Below are positions 1 through 8,944 of a stretch of 64,000 nucleotides of DNA, one piece after another. Each line of letters begins with the position of its first letter. Position 1 is the stretch's first letter. The notes under the pieces were generated by a model that was given only the letters and a program-made list of their open reading frames with translations, made no database searches and was not told the origin of the DNA. A program made the translations under genes and the position numbers. Source of the DNA: Phycisphaera sp. (GTDB lineage Bacteria > Planctomycetota > Phycisphaerae > Phycisphaerales > Zrk34); contig WGMA01000014.1 of assembly GCA_016125285.1 (NCBI GenBank), positions 1-64,000 on the forward strand, given 5' to 3'.

Positions 1-1
1 C

Positions 2-85
2 GACCTGTTCACCCGCCTGCCCGCCACACCCGTCAACCATCTCGACCAGTTCCTGCCCGACATCTGGAAGCCCACCGCGTACTGA
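2..85 (+). CDS. IS66-family transposase, C-terminal end (truncated by window edge)
   Basis: The first 27 codons of the window read DLFTRLPATPVNHLDQFLPD and end IWKPTAY before a TGA. This matches the conserved tail of IS66-type transposases, where a leucine-rich helix (DVLTRLP-like) is followed by a short linker and an L-P-x-x-W motif. Only the last residues are visible, so it cannot be said whether the transposase is intact. It converges on the GHKL ATPase gene with only 18 bp between the two stops. Family assignment rests on this short motif alone. Confidence 0.65.
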   Translation, partial: DLFTRLPATPVNHLDQFLPDIWKPTAY

Positions 86-103
86 TACGGCGTTACACGC
101 CAC

Positions 104-2578
104 TCACCGCCGGGGCAAGACGTGCTTCATGGAACGGATACCCATGAGTGGCGCCATGCTGAAGTGCATGAGAAAATCTGCATAATAGCTCTCGAACACG
201 TCCTTCAGGTACTCTTCAACATCGACAGTTTCTGGCTCTCGCCCATCGTGCTCTCGGGTGACCTGATATTTCCTTGTCTTCATGATCATGTACAAGAACA
301 ACGTGTGGAAGTAGACCGAGGTGATGTATCGCCGCTGTGCGACCTGAAGTTGTTCCGCTGATGGAGACCGGCCCAAGGTGGTTCGGTAATCCAGCCAAAC
401 CTTGCTGCTCATGTTGATGAGAATGGTCTTGAGCGTGTCACCTTCGGCATAAGGATGCATGACCGTAGAGTGTTCGAACTCAGCCCCCATCGCATTGGCA
501 TCATCCCAGGACAGCCAGCCCGTGTCTTCTGCGTCCTTGGCGACGAGTTTGTAGTCAGGAAGACCCAGGTTCTCTGCTTGGTCTTCCGCCTTAAGCTTCT
601 GCTTCTTCTTAGGGCGTTCGGGGTCTTTGACCTTTACCCAAAACATCTGCTCAAGGTTCTGACCGGGTGAGGTCAGCGACGCCATGACCTTTACGGACTC
701 GCCCACCTCTACCGCCTCAGTCGGCGCCAGGTGAAGGCGAATCGCCCCGTCGTCAGGACTCGCCTTGCGGACATTGAAAAGGTGAGAGAGTTGGTTGCCA
801 TCGCCGGTTCGGTCGCCGCCCTTCTTCTCATTCTGCTTATAGTCGAGCAGCGACACCTGTAGCTCCCCGGGCTCTTCTACCCGATCGAAGTACATGTTCT
901 CGACATCGGTTGAGAAGCGGATGGTCCGTTCCGTCCCCTTTGGAATGGAGATGGCGGGGATGTCGCCATTGTTCTTTGCGTCGAGGTTGAAGTATGAAGG
1001 AAAACGTTGCGGATCGAAGATCTCTTCCTCCTCGCGCCGTTGCTTCTTCTTCTGGTTGGACTTCTTCTTCGACTTGGTGTCTACCTTGTCCAGCTTGAAG
1101 ACTTGGTTGAGCAGCTTGTTCATCTCCGAGTTCAACGGGAGGTTCTCCGCAAAGGATCGCACCAGATCGTCTGCCTGACTGTCTTCGAGGCTCAGCGCCT
1201 CCTTGCGGCGCTTGTTGATCTTGTCGAGCTTGCTGTCCTTCAGCAGCTTGGCTAGCTCGTCGCGAAGGCGTTTGGTTTCGGCACCGCCTTTGAGCCGATC
1301 GCGTGAAGCCATCGTCAACTCATTGCGAAACTCCGGAACGAGGCCCGTGCAGTCGACATGGATCAACAGGTAGTTCTTGAGCAGGTTCATCTTCAGGGAT
1401 CGGGTGATGAACTCAGAGGTGTAGTCGCCGTGTACCTGCCCATTGACGGAGAACAGAACCGACATGTTGTTCTTGAAGAACTCCCGCGAGATCGTCTGGC
1501 GAGTTTCCTTGGTGGATTTGCCATCGATGCGCGTCTTGAACACATAGCACGTAGCCTTCAACGTGCCGATGTCGTCGAAGCTTGCTTCCTCGGAGAAGTA
1601 CTCCTCGATGTATTTGTTTCCTGCCTCTTCGAGTCTATGCTTCAGTCCATATAAGTGTCGATCGAGTTGAGCGTGAGGGTAACGCTTCGCACTCTCGATC
1701 GTGTACACCGGTAACGCCGGTTCAAACAGGAACTCGTTAATGCTCTGGTTGAGGTCGCGTGCGATTTCAGAGATGCCTGTTGGCAGATCGTACGAATACA
1801 GCTTGATGACGGTACCCGATTTGAATGATCGCTTGTGCAGACCGAGCTCTAGCTCTTTGCAATCGAACGCTGGGATGCGCCCATCGACGAGCAGGTATTC
1901 GTACCAAGTGTGTTTGAGTGCGTGTCGTTCCGAATCTGACATCGGGTGCTTGCGGATGAGCGTGAAACCGAATTTGCCGGTGTTGTTATAGCGCTTGGAC
2001 CCGATCAACTGATACCGCTTCTTTCCGCAGAAGACGATAGCGCCGCTACCGCCCATGTTGTATTTGCCTTGGACGAAATGGACATCGTTCTTGTTGCCGC
2101 GCAGGAGTGACAAAAACGTGTCCTTGAAATCCTCGGGGTGCTGCCCTTCGCCATCGTCGTAGATCACGAGCGAGGTGTCGCGCTTGGGGCCGTCGGCTAA
2201 GATTTGAATGAACTCGGCCTGCTGACGGCGAGGCTCGGAGTAGTCCCACTGTTTCTGATCAGGAAAGAACCGCTTGATCGCTTGCTCCATACTTCGTGGC
2301 GCGGCGTCTGACCTGGGATCTATTCCGGCTTCGTAGCACTTTCGCATGAGGATCGCATCGATCGAGTTGGTCAACTTCTCGATTAAGGCCGCAATGGAGG
2401 AGGACTGCTGGTTTTCGATGACAGCGAAGTAATTGTCGTTTCCTCCTAGTGGCGTCCAGTTGTTCGGATCGTTAAAGATGTCGGCATGAGCTTCGAGAAC
2501 CTTATCGACGTCGGCTTCCCGACCCGCCGAATAGAGCTCCATGAAGAGGGAGCGAAAGGTGCTTGTGTCGGTTGGCAT
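104..2578 (-). CDS. GHKL (Bergerat-fold) ATPase, large partner
   Basis: An 824-residue protein with a histidine-kinase/Hsp90/MutL-type ATP-binding fold. N box: E67 to N71 and D74 in LIEKLTNSIDA. G1 box: DDGEG at 141-145. Glycine-rich lid: NMGGSG at 174-179. No histidine-kinase dimerisation domain, transmembrane segment or nuclease motif is obvious. The middle (about 500-530) is very rich in K, R and E, and the last 300 residues look like a beta-rich plus helical accessory region. The ATG at 2578 was chosen because a GGGGA box lies just upstream; a longer frame begins at 2632. It lies directly downstream of a second, different GHKL ATPase gene in the same orientation. Known relatives of such pairs (MORC/MutL-like ATPases) occur in prokaryotic restriction and defence loci; a defence role here is inference. 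Confidence 0.85.
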   Translation of the reverse strand: MPTDTSTFRSLFMELYSAGREADVDKVLEAHADIFNDPNNWTPLGGNDNYFAVIENQQSSSIAALIEKLTNSIDAILMRKCYEAGIDPRSDAAPRSMEQAIKRFFPDQKQWDYSEPRRQQAEFIQILADGPKRDTSLVIYDDGEGQHPEDFKDTFLSLLRGNKNDVHFVQGKYNMGGSGAIVFCGKKRYQLIGSKRYNNTGKFGFTLIRKHPMSDSERHALKHTWYEYLLVDGRIPAFDCKELELGLHKRSFKSGTVIKLYSYDLPTGISEIARDLNQSINEFLFEPALPVYTIESAKRYPHAQLDRHLYGLKHRLEEAGNKYIEEYFSEEASFDDIGTLKATCYVFKTRIDGKSTKETRQTISREFFKNNMSVLFSVNGQVHGDYTSEFITRSLKMNLLKNYLLIHVDCTGLVPEFRNELTMASRDRLKGGAETKRLRDELAKLLKDSKLDKINKRRKEALSLEDSQADDLVRSFAENLPLNSEMNKLLNQVFKLDKVDTKSKKKSNQKKKQRREEEEIFDPQRFPSYFNLDAKNNGDIPAISIPKGTERTIRFSTDVENMYFDRVEEPGELQVSLLDYKQNEKKGGDRTGDGNQLSHLFNVRKASPDDGAIRLHLAPTEAVEVGESVKVMASLTSPGQNLEQMFWVKVKDPERPKKKQKLKAEDQAENLGLPDYKLVAKDAEDTGWLSWDDANAMGAEFEHSTVMHPYAEGDTLKTILINMSSKVWLDYRTTLGRSPSAEQLQVAQRRYITSVYFHTLFLYMIMKTRKYQVTREHDGREPETVDVEEYLKDVFESYYADFLMHFSMAPLMGIRSMKHVLPRR

Positions 2579-2674
2579 TATCAATCCCCGTGAGTGTGTG
2601 GTCCGCTTTAGGTCGTTGCAGCGATCGCACAAATGGGCGGGGCCAGACCGACCCCGCCCGTAGTGCCAATCATG

Positions 2675-4387
2675 TTACTTGTTCTTCGCCCAATGTTGCA
2701 GCAGGTTGCGAAGTTCAAGCCCCCAGTTCGTACGCAGGGCGTCGAACGCGGAAGTGTCCTCGAACTGAGCTTCGGCGCGGACGTAGCCAGCAATGAGCAG
2801 GTCTATGCCTAGGCGGGTCGTGCGTGCCAAGTCTCGGGCGTCAGGATCGTCCTGCTTCTCAGCGGCGAGCAGCTTGGCGTAGACATCGGTGTAGAATGGA
2901 TGCTGCATATTCAAACGAACAATCGTGCTCGGTCCAAGATGGTCGATGGCAAGCATCTCTTGACCCGGCCAGGTCATCGGCACGACGTTGTAGGGCTGAG
3001 TGCTGAGCTTTTGCTTCACCTGGGTTTTCTTCTTGGGACGCATCTCTTCGGGCGTGTCCTTCACGATCGACTCTGCGGCTTCGTCAAGCTTCTGTTCGCG
3101 AACCTCAGGGGAGACGTCCTTGCCCGCCTTGGGCTTTCGTGATGATCGCTGTGTTTCTCCGACGATGCGTTCTGCTTCCTCGTGGACTCCTTGCTCGCGA
3201 AGTGTCTCTTTCTCGACTTCGTTGAAGTAGACGCTGACTTCTTTTCGGAGCGTGATGATTGACTTGAAGATGGTTTCCCTGAGCTTGTCTCGAAGCCCCT
3301 CGATCGGTTCGGCCCCCTTCTTGACGTTGCGAACATGGAAGCATTCGTCGAGTTCAGGCTCGAATCGAATCTCCTTGCCGATGAATCGGTCGATGGGCTT
3401 GCCGTCAGTGGAGGGTTGCACGCCGGGAAGATAGCCATTGAAAATCTCGCGATCAGCGCGGAGGATGGATACGCCTTCGTTCTCTGGGATGCGTCTTTCC
3501 TTGGCGAAGTCGTTGCCGCCAGCTCCGCGATCTCGTCGAAAATTGTGCGGCAGGAGCGTCAAAGTCACGTGCACGATTGAGGATTTTGAGGGGTTGCTCG
3601 GAATCGGAAACTCAAACGGCTCGCTGATCTTGATCTCGGCTGTGGGGTCCGCGTTTTCGCCTTGGTGAAATCGTGTCGAAGTCATGAGGTACAGAGGATC
3701 GTGAGAACAGACGGGGGCACCATCGAATTGAATGGTGATCCCTTTGTCGAGGAACTTGCGAAAGGTGCGCGCGACGTACCGAACCAAATCAGTACGGACG
3801 GTATCGGATCGTCGGCCGCCACCCGACTCGTTCTCTTCGAGCCGGTCCGCCTTTGACCAGAGCACCAACGTTCCGCATTCGCCCACCAGGGAAGCACAAT
3901 CTTTCGGTAGCTCCGTTTGCTGCGGAGGCGGGATCACCTCCATCTTCTTTTCTTCGATATCGTCTAGATCGATGTAGGTGTGGAGCCAGGGGTCTGTGGC
4001 CGCCTGCCTACTGTAGAGGTCGATGTGCTTGGCTTGAGAAATACCACCGAGCTTGGCACCGACACCGAATCGGCCCATTCCGGTGCGATCGTTGTAGCGT
4101 GTCGAGAAGCCGAGTTTCAAGGCGTTGTGTAGGACAGGTTCGTCCATCCCCTCGCCGTCGTCACCGATTGCGAGACGGTCGACCACCTCGGTGGCTCGCT
4201 TGTTCTTGCCGATCTTCTTTTTCGTCGTGAAGACCTTGATTTGAACGGTGTTGGCGTTCGCCTGAAGGCTGTTGTCGATGACCTCGCCAATCGCACTACA
4301 GTAGTCGTGCCCCGAGGATCTTAGCGACAGCAGAGCTTTGTCCGCTGCGATGAGCGGAACGGTTGTAGTAACTGTACCAGTGGACAT
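2675..4387 (-). CDS. GHKL ATPase, MORC/Hsp90-like, small partner
   Basis: A 570-residue protein with a complete Bergerat ATP site: N box E35, D38, N39 in GEVIDNSLQANA; G1 box GDDGEGMD at 75-82; lid motif GMGRFGVGAKLGG at 103-115. The N-box and lid wording is closest to the MORC/paraMORC and Hsp90-like ATPases found in prokaryotic restriction-type loci. A charged, coiled-coil-like segment follows at about 390-460. The start at 4387 has a good GGAG eight bases upstream, so the upstream in-frame codons to 4489 are not needed. It is probably the first gene of a two-gene operon with the 824-residue ATPase, about 96 bp apart. The partner enzyme, if any, is not visible in the window. Confidence 0.88.
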   Translation of the reverse strand: MSTGTVTTTVPLIAADKALLSLRSSGHDYCSAIGEVIDNSLQANANTVQIKVFTTKKKIGKNKRATEVVDRLAIGDDGEGMDEPVLHNALKLGFSTRYNDRTGMGRFGVGAKLGGISQAKHIDLYSRQAATDPWLHTYIDLDDIEEKKMEVIPPPQQTELPKDCASLVGECGTLVLWSKADRLEENESGGGRRSDTVRTDLVRYVARTFRKFLDKGITIQFDGAPVCSHDPLYLMTSTRFHQGENADPTAEIKISEPFEFPIPSNPSKSSIVHVTLTLLPHNFRRDRGAGGNDFAKERRIPENEGVSILRADREIFNGYLPGVQPSTDGKPIDRFIGKEIRFEPELDECFHVRNVKKGAEPIEGLRDKLRETIFKSIITLRKEVSVYFNEVEKETLREQGVHEEAERIVGETQRSSRKPKAGKDVSPEVREQKLDEAAESIVKDTPEEMRPKKKTQVKQKLSTQPYNVVPMTWPGQEMLAIDHLGPSTIVRLNMQHPFYTDVYAKLLAAEKQDDPDARDLARTTRLGIDLLIAGYVRAEAQFEDTSAFDALRTNWGLELRNLLQHWAKNK

Positions 4388-4616: not shown

Positions 4617-5408
4617 TCACTGGATCAATGGTTTTTGCACAATTATTGGCTTTTCCCCAGCGCATAGCGTTTGGTCGGTGTTCCGATCGTTGTGCCATCG
4701 CGACTGTATACGCTTACGCGCCTCATCTCCAACATCACCCGGGAACTTGGGCTCAAGGGCCGGCGTGAGCTTCATGCGTAGATTCTCAATTACCAGATCC
4801 GCACGGTTGTCTATGTCGTACGTGACAACGTTGAAATAAGGCTCCCGACGTTGGTCAAACAGGTAGGCTGGGTTCCGCTTGTTGCGTCCACGCCTGCTGT
4901 GGCTCTTGGTCATCAGATAGGTCGTGGCGACCTTCTTGGTCACGGACTCCGAGATTTTCAAAGCTTCGGCGATCTTTGGGTGTGTCGCCTTGCCATCGTA
5001 AACGTATCGCCAGTGCCAGATGGCGAACCACTCCATTGCTGAGAGCGTGCTTCCCTCAAGAGGCGTGCCGTCGTATTCGCGGAAATGCCCGCTCGTCTTT
5101 ACGTGTTTACGCGTTCGTGTACCGAATAGTGCGCCGATCTCTGTCGTCGTGGTGGAGCACTTGGGGTTTAAACAGCGGAACTGCTGTACACGGTGATTAC
5201 CCTTGTTACGTACGCCGCTTCGGATCACTTCGGGGCCATGGCAGTGCGCGCATGTCAAGGGGATCGTCCGGCAGCGTAGCGCTGCAAAAACGCCAGGGAC
5301 AGAAAACGCCGTGAGTGGTACGTCCACATGCGTGCTATGGAACACGGCGCCCGCATCTATGGCGGCTGCTTGAAGGGACTTATAAAGTTCGGACAGGTGT
5401 TCATGCAT
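4617..5408 (-). CDS. Zinc-ribbon DNA-binding protein (transposase N-terminus-like)
   Basis: A 263-residue protein (290 if a GTG at 5489 is used). A four-cysteine zinc ribbon, CAHC at 53-56 and a second pair C79 and C84, is followed by a basic segment and a putative helix-turn-helix around KIAEALKISESVTKKV. This resembles the InsA-like DNA-binding half of IS1-type transposases. No DDE catalytic triad was recognised, so it may be a regulator rather than a transposase. The C-terminal 80 residues match nothing I know. It lies upstream of the GHKL operon on the same strand, 229 bp apart, and divergent from the replication-type gene. No clear Shine-Dalgarno was seen for either start. Confidence 0.7.
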   Translation of the reverse strand: MHEHLSELYKSLQAAAIDAGAVFHSTHVDVPLTAFSVPGVFAALRCRTIPLTCAHCHGPEVIRSGVRNKGNHRVQQFRCLNPKCSTTTTEIGALFGTRTRKHVKTSGHFREYDGTPLEGSTLSAMEWFAIWHWRYVYDGKATHPKIAEALKISESVTKKVATTYLMTKSHSRRGRNKRNPAYLFDQRREPYFNVVTYDIDNRADLVIENLRMKLTPALEPKFPGDVGDEARKRIQSRWHNDRNTDQTLCAGEKPIIVQKPLIQ

Positions 5409-5508
5409 GACGAAGTCGGCTTGCTGTGTTGGACGTGCTGGGTGTGCGCGGTGCGCCGGGTCTCTATATGGATATGGCGAAAAATGCACGGGACGCTTCG
5501 GCTAACGT

Positions 5509-5514: not shown

Positions 5515-5658
5515 GACGTTTTCGTTTTCTCTATTGTAACATATTTATATTAAACATCTAACAGATCGGTGTGTTCGGGCGTAACGCGCCGGTAGCACGT
5601 GGATATCCGCAGTACGTTCTGTGGGCTGAGATGCACCAATCTTCGTATTGGAGAGAAC

Positions 5659-7383
5659 ATGATATCCAACACCGAGAACACGCTACTTTTGACCGACAAT
5701 GCCGACCCTGGCGGCGCACCACAACAATTTCCAAGGAACGCTTACGCGCTACAGATGGATGACGATCAGCCGGCTGTCACCGACACGTCGAACAACGCCC
5801 CTTGCCACCTTCCCGCGCATGACGAGGTGGATGTATTTGAGTGGCACGATGATCGCCCTCATGTAGACAACTACTTCGAACTCGGCAGTCGTCTTGCTCG
5901 CACAGGCGACGTCTTCCGTGACGGCGCGTTCGGACAAGCGCTTCGTATCGTTCCTATGGAGCCCGGCACACCATCGAGATTGATCGCTAGCGCACAAGAT
6001 CTCGGCGGCGTGATCGTCGATCGTGTACCCCTCAAGGTCTACCGCGAGGGCAAGTGCCGCGGCGGTCGTTTTCCGGCGGGCCATCTTCAGGTCATGCTTC
6101 GCAGCGAGGCGTTCCTCCGGCAGTTCAGGCCGATCGACTCCATCGCGACATCGCCGATCTACCTGCCTGACTTCACGTTGACCAAGCCCGGATACAACGA
6201 CGGTGGTGTTGGGCAGCGGATCTACTACGCTGGACCACCTGCCACAATCGCGGACGATACGACGGTCCTTACCAAGTTCCTCTCGGTGATGGCCTTCGCG
6301 TCCCAAGCCGATTACGCCAATGCGTTGGGTTTCGCGCTGACTGTGATGTTGCGTAACCACTTTCAGGGCGGGAAGCCCGTGGCCGCGGTGACCGCGACGA
6401 AGAGCCACGCCGGCAAAGATACGATCGTGGCGTTCGCGGTGGGTACTGGTCGGCTCACGTCCATCAGTTACCAGAGCACCAACTGGGCGCTGGAGCGGTC
6501 GTTCGTCGGCGCGCTCAAGAATTCGCCGGACACGGCGATTATGAACATCGAGAACGCGAGGCTCGACTCCGGCAACTACATCGCTTCTGCGTTTCTGGAG
6601 CGCTTCATCACGGATCCTTATCCGACATTGTTCTCTACCGGAACCGGTGCCCCGGTGCGTCGCAACAACGACATCGTGCTGGCCATCACCACCAATCACG
6701 GCACACTCAGCACCGATATGAACAACCGCAGCTTGCCGATCCACTTGGCCCCCACCGGCAATATCGAGGATCGCACGAGTTCAATTGGCAACCCGAAAGA
6801 AGAGTTCTTGCCCCAGAACCGTGAGGCTATCGAGGCAGAATTGCGCGGGATGGTCGAGCGCTGGAAGGAGGCGGGCATGCCGCTCAATACCAAGGTCAAG
6901 CACCCTTTCACGATATGGGCACAGACAGTTGGGGGCATCCTTGAGGTGGCTGGCATCACGGGCTTCCTGAGCAACTACAGCATGCGCAAAGCGGTGGACG
7001 ATCCGCTGCGGCACGCAATTGGCTTGCTGGCCACGGCATTAACGCCCGAGGGAAGCGATGGATGGCTCCGCGCTGCTGATTGGGCGCAGCGTGCGGTCGA
7101 TATGGGATTGGCCAAGACCCTGATACCAACTGCCGACCGCGACACCGCGAAGGGGAGAGAGCGCGGCATTGGCGTGATCATGTCCAAACACCGCGACGAG
7201 ACATTCAACGTCGAGACCGATGATGTGCGGCTCGTCCTACGGCTGGAGAAGGCGCGTCGGCGGTTTGAGAGCAGCCCGTCTACGCGGTACCGCTTCGTGC
7301 AACTCGAAGCCTACGAACTGCCGTGCGAAGACGACGAGCAGATAGTCGCTGCGAAGGAGAACGATGCCCGCTCCACCGAGTGA
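5659..7383 (+). CDS. Replication/helicase-like ATPase of mobile element
   Basis: A 574-residue protein. A central ATPase-like region contains a degenerate P-loop (TKSHAGKDT at 247-255), a Walker-B-like strand (TAIMNIENAR at 292-301) and a sensor-like segment (ITTNHGTLSTDMNNR). This order is like the D5/SF3-type helicase domains of phage and satellite replication proteins, with a long divergent N-terminal part. The second glycine-rich residue of a classical Walker A is missing, so ATP binding is not certain. ATG 5659 follows GGAGAG at good spacing; the frame is open from 5599. It is followed by xis-like and int genes on the same strand, as in satellite elements. No primase motif was recognised. 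Confidence 0.7.
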   Translation: MISNTENTLLLTDNADPGGAPQQFPRNAYALQMDDDQPAVTDTSNNAPCHLPAHDEVDVFEWHDDRPHVDNYFELGSRLARTGDVFRDGAFGQALRIVPMEPGTPSRLIASAQDLGGVIVDRVPLKVYREGKCRGGRFPAGHLQVMLRSEAFLRQFRPIDSIATSPIYLPDFTLTKPGYNDGGVGQRIYYAGPPATIADDTTVLTKFLSVMAFASQADYANALGFALTVMLRNHFQGGKPVAAVTATKSHAGKDTIVAFAVGTGRLTSISYQSTNWALERSFVGALKNSPDTAIMNIENARLDSGNYIASAFLERFITDPYPTLFSTGTGAPVRRNNDIVLAITTNHGTLSTDMNNRSLPIHLAPTGNIEDRTSSIGNPKEEFLPQNREAIEAELRGMVERWKEAGMPLNTKVKHPFTIWAQTVGGILEVAGITGFLSNYSMRKAVDDPLRHAIGLLATALTPEGSDGWLRAADWAQRAVDMGLAKTLIPTADRDTAKGRERGIGVIMSKHRDETFNVETDDVRLVLRLEKARRRFESSPSTRYRFVQLEAYELPCEDDEQIVAAKENDARSTE

Positions 7384-7444: not shown

Positions 7445-7621
7445 ATGAATCAAACGACGAGTGAACTCTTGACGAAACCAGAAGCTGCCGAATTCTTGAA
7501 CGTCTCGGTGAGGACGCTTGAACGTGAAGTGGCCGCTAAGCGGCTAGTACCAGTACGCATCCGCGGATGCGTGCGTTTCCGGCTTAGCGATCTGGAAGCC
7601 TACGTGGAGGGCGACGCGTGA
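7445..7621 (+). CDS. Excisionase-like helix-turn-helix protein
   Basis: A 58-residue protein with a MerR/excisionase-type (HTH_17) winged helix: LLTKPEAAEFLNVSVRTLER for the helix-turn-helix, then VPVRIRGCVRFRLSDLEAYV for the wing and final helix. Such proteins bend DNA and direct integrases towards excision. A GAGGTG ribosome site precedes the ATG. Its TGA overlaps the GTG start of the integrase (GTGA), a strong sign of translational coupling and of a functional Xis-Int pair. Confidence 0.85.
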   Translation: MNQTTSELLTKPEAAEFLNVSVRTLEREVAAKRLVPVRIRGCVRFRLSDLEAYVEGDA

Positions 7622-8907
7622 AACAGTTCGTATTCAAAAAGCGCCGCAAGGCAACGAAGCCCAACGGCAAGCGCGTGACCAAAGTTGCGTCGACCTACAC
7701 CGGGCGTTACCGGTTCCCCGGCGACCCTCGGCCAACAGAGGTCGCGTTGGGCGTGACCGACAAGCGTGTCGCAGAACAGAAACTCGCCAAGATCGTCCTG
7801 CGTGATGAGCGCCGCCGTGCGGGACTGCTGCTGGACGAGGCGGAGGTAGAAGCAGCACGTCGGCCGTTATCCGAATTGCTCGACGAGCACGTCGCCGACC
7901 TCCGCGCACGCGGTGTTCACCCAAACGAGGTGCAGAACCGTAAGGACCGCATCGGGCGATTGTTCCGGGATTGTCATTGGACCTATTTGCGGGACGTGAG
8001 GGCAAGCAACTTCACGCGCTGGCGCGGGGGCGTGGACCTTGCGCCAAAGACCATCAACGACTACTTGCTCGCCGCAAACAGGTTCTACCGATGGCTGGTG
8101 AAGCGTGGGCAGTTGTCCCACAATCCGCTGGACGGCGTTGATCGTGTTGAGCAGCGTGGTCAGGAGTCGTTTCAGCGCCGCCCGCTTACGGTGGACGAGA
8201 GTCGGAGGCTGCTGGCCGTCGCCGGTAAGCAGCGACCGGTGTACCTGACGGCAGTGTTGACGGGGCTGCGGCGCGGCGCGTTGTACAAACTGCGATGGAC
8301 GCATGTTGTACTGGACGCCGGTGATCCCAGGATCGAGGTGCCTGCCGGGATGATGAAGAACCGTGAGAAACACGTCGTTCCGCTGACGCCGGAATTGGTG
8401 GCCGAATTGCGATCGATACGGCCCGAACCGTACGACGAGAAGCGACGTGTGTTCTGGGGACGCCTGCCCGAAAGAGGCTGCGAGTTCCTCAAGGACCATC
8501 TCAAGGAAGCGGGTATCGAGTACGAGAACGAGCGTGGCCGTGTCGATTTCCACGCGCTGCGACACACGGCAGCAACGTGGGGTGGCGCAACGGGCGTGGC
8601 CGGGCCGATGCTCCAGGCGTTCACCGGACACAAGACCGCGAGCCAGGTCAATCGCTACGTGCATCCGGAGAACCTGCCCGCTCGGCGCATCGTGGACCAG
8701 CTGCCCACGCTGCTAGGTGGCCACCCATATGGCCACCCAAATCGGTCGCAGGACGGTAAATCCGGTCATGGCGTGTCGCACGATGGCGAAACATTGGAGA
8801 GCGCGAAACCCCTAGAAAATGAAGGAAAAACGCCGCAGGACGGTGGTCCTACGGCGTATGGTGAAAAAGTATCCCCAACGGGATTTGAACCCGTGTCTTC
8901 ACCGTGA
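7618..8907 (+). CDS. Tyrosine recombinase / integrase
   Basis: A 429-residue phage-type integrase. The N-terminal core-binding domain is at about 80-165. Catalytic residues visible: R218 (TGLRRG), K251, H312 and R315 (HALRHT), H338 (GHKT), Y347 (NRYVHP). The GTG start has GGAGG eight bases upstream and overlaps the excisionase stop. The last 50 or so residues after the tyrosine are unlike integrase sequence: they are encoded by the tRNA-Glu terminator and by the antisense of the tRNA 3' half (SPTGFEPVSSP). It is therefore immediately adjacent to, and reads into, the attachment site; integration probably rebuilds both the tRNA and the integrase tail. Confidence 0.93.
   Translation: MKQFVFKKRRKATKPNGKRVTKVASTYTGRYRFPGDPRPTEVALGVTDKRVAEQKLAKIVLRDERRRAGLLLDEAEVEAARRPLSELLDEHVADLRARGVHPNEVQNRKDRIGRLFRDCHWTYLRDVRASNFTRWRGGVDLAPKTINDYLLAANRFYRWLVKRGQLSHNPLDGVDRVEQRGQESFQRRPLTVDESRRLLAVAGKQRPVYLTAVLTGLRRGALYKLRWTHVVLDAGDPRIEVPAGMMKNREKHVVPLTPELVAELRSIRPEPYDEKRRVFWGRLPERGCEFLKDHLKEAGIEYENERGRVDFHALRHTAATWGGATGVAGPMLQAFTGHKTASQVNRYVHPENLPARRIVDQLPTLLGGHPYGHPNRSQDGKSGHGVSHDGETLESAKPLENEGKTPQDGGPTAYGEKVSPTGFEPVSSP
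8826..8857 (-). terminator. Rho-independent terminator of tRNA-Glu
   Basis: Reading the reverse strand from the tRNA 3' end, an 11-bp stem with one mismatch (ACGCCG-AGGAC / GTCCT-CGGCG), loop of four, is followed by TTTTT. It lies inside the 3' coding part of the integrase, so the same bases serve as a terminator on one strand and as codons on the other. Confidence 0.75.
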
Positions 8908-8944
8908 AAGGGTGATGTCCTAGGCCAGGCTAGACGATGGGGAC
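8870..8944 (-). tRNA. tRNA-Glu (anticodon TTC)
   Basis: 75 nt fold as a cloverleaf: acceptor GTCCCCA / TGGGGAT with discriminator A, anticodon stem TCACC / GGTGA with loop CTTTCAC (anticodon TTC), T arm CGGGT-TCAAATC-CCG. No CCA is encoded. Sequence and anticodon agree with bacterial tRNA-Glu. The integrase frame ends inside its 3' half on the opposite strand, marking the attachment site. Confidence 0.95.

Follow-up and report, generated by a model that had tools for sequence, protein, structure and literature searches.

GHKL ATPases of a tRNA-Glu island as candidate components of an Ssp-type DNA-phosphorothioation restriction–modification locus in Phycisphaera sp.

The window, the whole stretch of 64,000 nucleotides analysed here, comprises bases 1–64000 of contig C21 of a Phycisphaera sp. 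assembly (G000:C21 from base 1), hence the position of gene B at a contig end. As an earlier note on this DNA had claimed, two different GHKL ATPases (824 and 570 residues) are encoded side by side; both genes are intact and on the minus strand, in the order A then B, with 96 bp from the stop codon of A to the ATG of B. This end of the window holds the following features:

1..141, plus strand: right end of an IS66-like insertion sequence (IS), with the end of the transposase ORF at 2–84 and a 25-bp terminal inverted repeat at 117–141
104..2578, minus strand: gene B, GHKL (Hsp90/MORC-like) ATPase of 824 amino acids, intact ORF
142..149, no strand: 8-bp target-site duplication, CCATGAGT, with a second copy at C82:142-149, joining C21 to C82 across the IS
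2675..4387, minus strand: gene A, MORC-like GHKL ATPase of 570 amino acids, intact ORF
4617..5489, minus strand: 290-aa ORF upstream of A, with a weak IS1/IS1595-type zinc-binding N-terminus
5599..7383, plus strand: primase/helicase-like protein of the mobile element (PHROG DNA polymerase/primase match, 1.6e-8)
7618..8907, plus strand: tyrosine integrase (ORF and domain match), its 3' end overlapping the tRNA-Glu gene
8869..8944, minus strand: tRNA-Glu, the integration target, detected as a tRNA in the window
8870..8893, no strand: att core, a 24-bp direct repeat that copies the tRNA-Glu end, with an exact second copy at G000:C82:28412-28435

The integrase, the tRNA-Glu gene and the 24-bp att repeats bear out the claim that the pair lies in a tRNA-linked mobile element. 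Near base 1, C21 and C82 share a 25-bp terminal repeat (GTATCCGTTCCA..AAGCACGTCTT), the inverted repeat on C21 being matched at 22 of 25 positions by the IS end on C82 (about 117–141 of L012, the C82 end region), and CCATGAGT lies outward of the repeat on both contigs, occurring once in each end region. The matching terminal repeats and the 8-bp duplication indicate a single element with its ends on different contigs, which we take, from the end of its transposase gene and the 8-bp duplication, to be IS66-like. We join C21 to C82 through this IS on the basis of repeats rather than of a read. Together with the att repeats, the IS inverted repeats and the duplication, a step in G+C (0.57 inside the island versus 0.68 in the flanks on both contigs) indicates that the island is continuous over the two contigs; so reconstructed, it measures about 37.3 kb, not counting the IS interior, with most of it outside the window, on C82. 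The insertion sits a few codons ahead of the native stop of B and the frame is kept through 12 IS-encoded residues, so that the last 12 residues of B (GIRSMKHVLPRR) are the end of the element and not native gene. On C82 only a few codons follow the duplicated bases before the frame stops; the nearest relative of B ends in LIEALAD.

The C82 part of the island encodes:

C82 (L012) 216-1175, downstream of B, in the B direction: dCTP-deaminase-like protein
C82 (L012) 1191-3176, downstream of B, in the B direction: 661-aa protein with two RNxMxHG-like motifs
C82 3231-3677, facing the B direction: nucleoside-deoxyribosyltransferase-like protein (NDT)
C82 3656-4468, facing the B direction: SspD (PADLOC, 1e-112)
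C82 4492-7980, facing the B direction: SspC (PADLOC, E 0)
C82 7977-8918, facing the B direction: SspB (PADLOC, 7e-98)
C82 8896-10035, facing the B direction: ORF with a PD-(D/E)xK-like stretch (weak PDC-M15A match)

SspB, a DNA-binding protein, SspC, an AAA+ ATPase (PMC10853773, PMC12839542), and SspD are thus all present (C82:3656-8918). A and B are convergent with the ssp genes rather than in one operon with them. Among the ORFs listed for the C82 part we saw no SspA cysteine desulfurase; host IscS may stand in for it, as in FF-93 (PMC8092258). PADLOC matched neither SspE nor SspFGH in A, B or any island protein that we searched, and the larger island proteins gave no Pfam or PADLOC match to PglZ or BrxL. 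We read the RNxMxHG-like motifs of the 661-aa protein as HEPN-like; neither it nor the dCTP-deaminase-like protein has relatives in the 80 B loci described below. Nearer the other att site are a WYL regulator, a REase-ARP nuclease, DUF932 and a clamp-loader-like ATPase. The REase-ARP-like PD-(D/E)xK nuclease (L013 6238-7236; C82 20238-21236) lies on the same island, distant from the ssp genes. The earlier note had argued from the absence of a methylase, nuclease or helicase, but the window is cut at the contig end and the argument was made on an incomplete locus: the rest of the island carries sspBCD. Its interpretation is, for this reason, only partly right.

Predicted structures confirm a GHKL-plus-transducer fold in both proteins, and their ATP sites are intact. 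In B the GHKL and transducer region spans about residues 46–466 and is followed by a K/E-rich stretch (about 494–517), a beta-rich region (about 520–720) and a helical C-terminus, in agreement with the linker and beta-rich C-terminal region noted earlier; the K/E-rich stretch is of low confidence in the model and is probably a disordered linker. The predicted fold of residues 46–466 aligns with Hsp90 (Z 15.7, r.m.s.d. 4.5, 297 residues aligned) and MORC3 (Z 13.4), and Pfam HATPase_c_3 matches B at 7e-5, slightly below the curated cut-off. All 55 of 55 relatives compared share with B the catalytic Glu67 together with Asn71, Asp141, Gly143, Gly145, Gln170, Gly171 and Gly176, lid residues included, and on this conservation the ATP site of B is intact. 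The C-terminal half has D558, G611, P674 and N722 as its sole invariant residues among 14 diverse relatives and is without a Pfam match. A PDB sequence search with the B profile returned nothing at E up to 1, phage records searched with B gave no match, and neither B nor A yielded a recognisable nuclease motif.

A resembles B in fold and generic motifs only. It matches HATPase_c_3 at 1.6e-21 and MORC4 by profile at 4e-9, and its predicted fold resembles SMCHD1/MORC3 (Z about 20) in a model that is weak (pLDDT 61) because just 11 relatives were available. The BbrUII/HgiDII-family profile (NCBIfam NF050001) matches A at 8e-8, scoring 31 bits where the cut-off is 550 and confined to the ATPase domain; this family shows that GHKL proteins can be restriction enzymes. 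MzaB of the MZA system likewise matches the GHKL domain of A, with 54 bits against a curated cut-off of 850, and the Z1/AIPR partners of that system are not seen here. We rejected membership of either group for A, since both matches are domain-only and far below cut-off. For B, PADLOC and NCBIfam gave no match and Pfam only the sub-threshold generic domain, which leaves it outside the named systems, as had been proposed.

An alignment search with B, using one genome per species, returned 416 relatives, and we took the best 80 of these (50–65% identical) with 10-kb flanks; the survey began from the nearest relatives and so describes that subfamily. At least one ssp gene lies within 10 kb of B in 74 of the 80 loci (sspC in 74, sspD in 73, sspB in 64), and the six loci with neither sspC nor sspD are on contigs cut nearby. 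The loci span at least 12 phyla, and the median distance separating B from its closest ssp gene is 2.1 kb. Unrelated defence genes do accumulate on islands, and A and B might be independent cargo gathered on a defence island by chance; this linkage, its phyletic breadth and its short gap already contradict such an origin, as does the fact that no other gene family approaches the frequency of ssp genes near B, and we consider it extremely improbable. The three close plasmid-borne relatives, from Hymenobacter, Ensifer and Devosia, likewise all lie beside ssp genes. We conclude that the A and B genes are very probably part of an Ssp-type locus.

Other neighbours of B vary across the 80 loci: SspE (25), GIY-YIG (25), DndB-like (PF14072; 22), A-like GHKL (12), kinase-like (12), SIR2 (9) and double-HATPase (8) genes. 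At least two loci (L033, L042) have sspA–D and B as their sole recognised genes. Ssp loci also repeatedly pair a GIY-YIG-like nuclease with a DndB-family (PF14072) protein (L034, L041, L049, L055, L116), possibly as a further restriction module. A double-HATPase 'sensor histidine kinase' likewise recurs near ssp genes, whether or not B is present (L003, L004, L085, L098, L100, L106, L109, L115), often accompanied by a 600–700-aa partner; the pair resembles HEF_HK/Response_reg_2 (PMC8011034).

The earlier note had proposed that A and B make up a self-contained two-gene ATPase defence system. One further tRNA-linked island from Planctomycetota (L015, tRNA-Thr) keeps the exact pair in its order, with 74% identity for A and 65% for B. 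However, L015 too has sspB, sspC and sspD; A-like partners occur within the flanks of just 12 of the 80 B loci, and B is never without ssp genes where the flanks are complete. These neighbourhoods led us to reject a stand-alone ATPase pair, a reading to which we give very little credence. A defence role and the lack of a name for B in PADLOC, NCBIfam and Pfam survive from that proposal, and pairing elsewhere holds for L015 but not as a rule. Between L015 and this island, A, B, NDT (64%) and SspD (75%) are 64–75% identical versus 36% for SspC and 43% for SspB; a swap of the genes for marking specificity may lie behind this.

A-like genes have their own associations with ssp genes. In the B loci most have a GIY-YIG nuclease alongside, and 10 of the 12 lie 9–31 bp from an ssp gene; eight Flavobacteriaceae loci show the order B-sspB-sspC-sspD-A-GIY-YIG on a single strand. 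Among 55 plasmid records, 12 (a hand count from two tables) have an A-like gene at most 12 kb from sspD. Loci from Trichormus, Pannonibacter and Mesorhizobium (L110, L112, L113) have the order helicase (DEAD/DEAH type), A-like gene, phospholipase-D-like nuclease, adjoining sspBCD. Our best reading of A is as a second, interchangeable MORC-like restriction ATPase, akin to those that adjoin sspD with a nuclease and sometimes a helicase.

Ssp loci commonly lack B. Strong SspD matches occur in 9 of 392 Planctomycetota genomes, eight of them without B, this genome being the only one with both, and the seven B-less Planctomycetota loci that we inspected carry SspE, double-HATPase or DndB-like genes. 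Supported branches of the SspC tree need at least 11 switches between presence and absence of B, and the SspD tree matches it in outline, with some long branches. The SspC tree rules out B as the marker of one Ssp clade (p 1e-5); as these trees read, B has been joined to different SspC lineages repeatedly. The scatter of B over the SspC tree, the common B-less loci and the position of B beside ssp genes together indicate that B needs Ssp and that Ssp does not need B.

More distant relatives extend the family beyond phosphorothioation. Full-length relatives of 25–30% identity directly adjoin an N6/N4 DNA methylase in L103, L118 and L123, where they are the only evident restriction candidate among near neighbours, and a C5 methylase with a Vsr endonuclease in L120; others (Pontibacillus, Haladaptatus) have neither ssp nor methylase genes in the annotated stretch. 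L103, L118 and L123 are two-gene loci of methylase and distant B, two of them on viral-collection contigs, and are possible minimal restriction–modification pairs.

B could instead act on the modification side: its ATPase would serve the assembly, loading or regulation of the SspBCD complex, and restriction would fall to separate genes. Its constancy beside changing effector genes also fits this role and counts against our reading, and B distances track those of SspB and SspC (r 0.78–0.79) slightly more closely than those of SspD (0.69). However, B is absent from most Ssp loci and scattered over the SspC tree, its distant relatives keep company with methylases, enzymes that normally work without a helper of this kind, and loci with sspA–D and B alone exist. 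We regard a modification-side role as unlikely. The occurrence of one ATPase family beside different DNA-marking chemistries is our main reason for preferring the restriction side, on which B probably acts.

The reading that we favour, and consider likely, is that A and B belong to an Ssp-type DNA-phosphorothioation restriction–modification locus on a tRNA-Glu island, with B a restriction-side clamp and A interchangeable. Counting against it are the lack of a recognised nuclease motif in either protein, the convergent arrangement of A and B with the ssp genes, the distant relatives whose annotated stretch has neither ssp nor methylase genes, and a join of C82 to C21 drawn from repeats. The sequence itself shows the island, its ssp genes, the tight linkage of B to genes for DNA modification, and the intact ATP site and fold of B; we infer the steps of restriction, clamping, mark reading and nuclease hand-over as follows. 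SspB, SspC and SspD would place sulphur marks on host DNA. The GHKL module of B would close into a dimeric clamp gated by ATP, in the manner of MORC, MutL and Hsp90, whose GHKL-plus-transducer modules close as ATP-bound dimers. Its C-terminal beta-rich region may contact DNA or Ssp proteins, through which B would read or receive mark status, and DNA without the host mark would be trapped or blocked by B, or passed to, or licensed for, a nuclease. A would act like B with its own nuclease partner. We hold the clamp mechanism as worded tentatively, at a little under an even chance.

Several described systems share parts with this island. SspABCD–SspE and SspABCD–SspFGH (PMC8092258, PMC9646914) have SspB, SspC and SspD in common with it, as strong profile matches, whereas here the proteins searched gave no SspE or SspFGH match and it is GHKL ATPases that are candidates for the restriction part. 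Type 4 BREX (PMC12839542) shares SspB (DUF4007), SspC (BrxC-like) and SspD (PAPS reductase); its PglZ and BrxL, unmatched on the island, are present in L108. The MORC/paraMORC proteins of restriction–modification (PMC2292703) share with A and B a GHKL domain with an S5-type transducer and the company of modification enzymes, and A-like genes share their helicase and nuclease company as well, but B differs in having its own C-terminal region. The partners in that paper are DNA methylases, helicases and nucleases, and the words PAPS and ParB do not occur in its text. HEF_HK/Response_reg_2 paraMORCs (PMC8011034), whose double-HATPase and partner recur in Ssp loci beside B (L003, L004, L085), have a GHKL architecture other than that of A or B. 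Our literature search, run on papers open to read without subscription, found nothing combining phosphorothioation and GHKL; the full texts of two recent comparative papers on Dnd and BREX/Ssp are without GHKL, Hsp90 or MORC, and a wider search gave no further Ssp partner names. The B family is widespread and apparently unnamed, in that no library or paper searched names it. Phosphorothioation defence and paraMORCs in restriction–modification are already known; their coupling through B appears to be undescribed in searchable sources.

About 84% of sspBCD sets (2,211 of 2,678) are without either known partner (PMC8092258). B is a concrete candidate for such sets, its 416 relatives extending this to hundreds of genomes, and a good candidate for a missing 'attack' partner of DNA-marking systems. 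The minimal form (sspA–D and B) and the methylase-linked form make its role testable. In a bolder and rather unlikely extension, B would found a group of modification-reading restriction ATPases acting with no recognisable nuclease; a single GHKL clamp family would serve phosphorothioate, N6/N4-methyl and C5-methyl systems, and its ATP-driven clamping would silence or trap unmarked DNA. If the favoured reading is true, bacterial phosphorothioation defence would be linked to DNA clamps of the MORC/MutL type, the kind with which eukaryotes silence chromatin.
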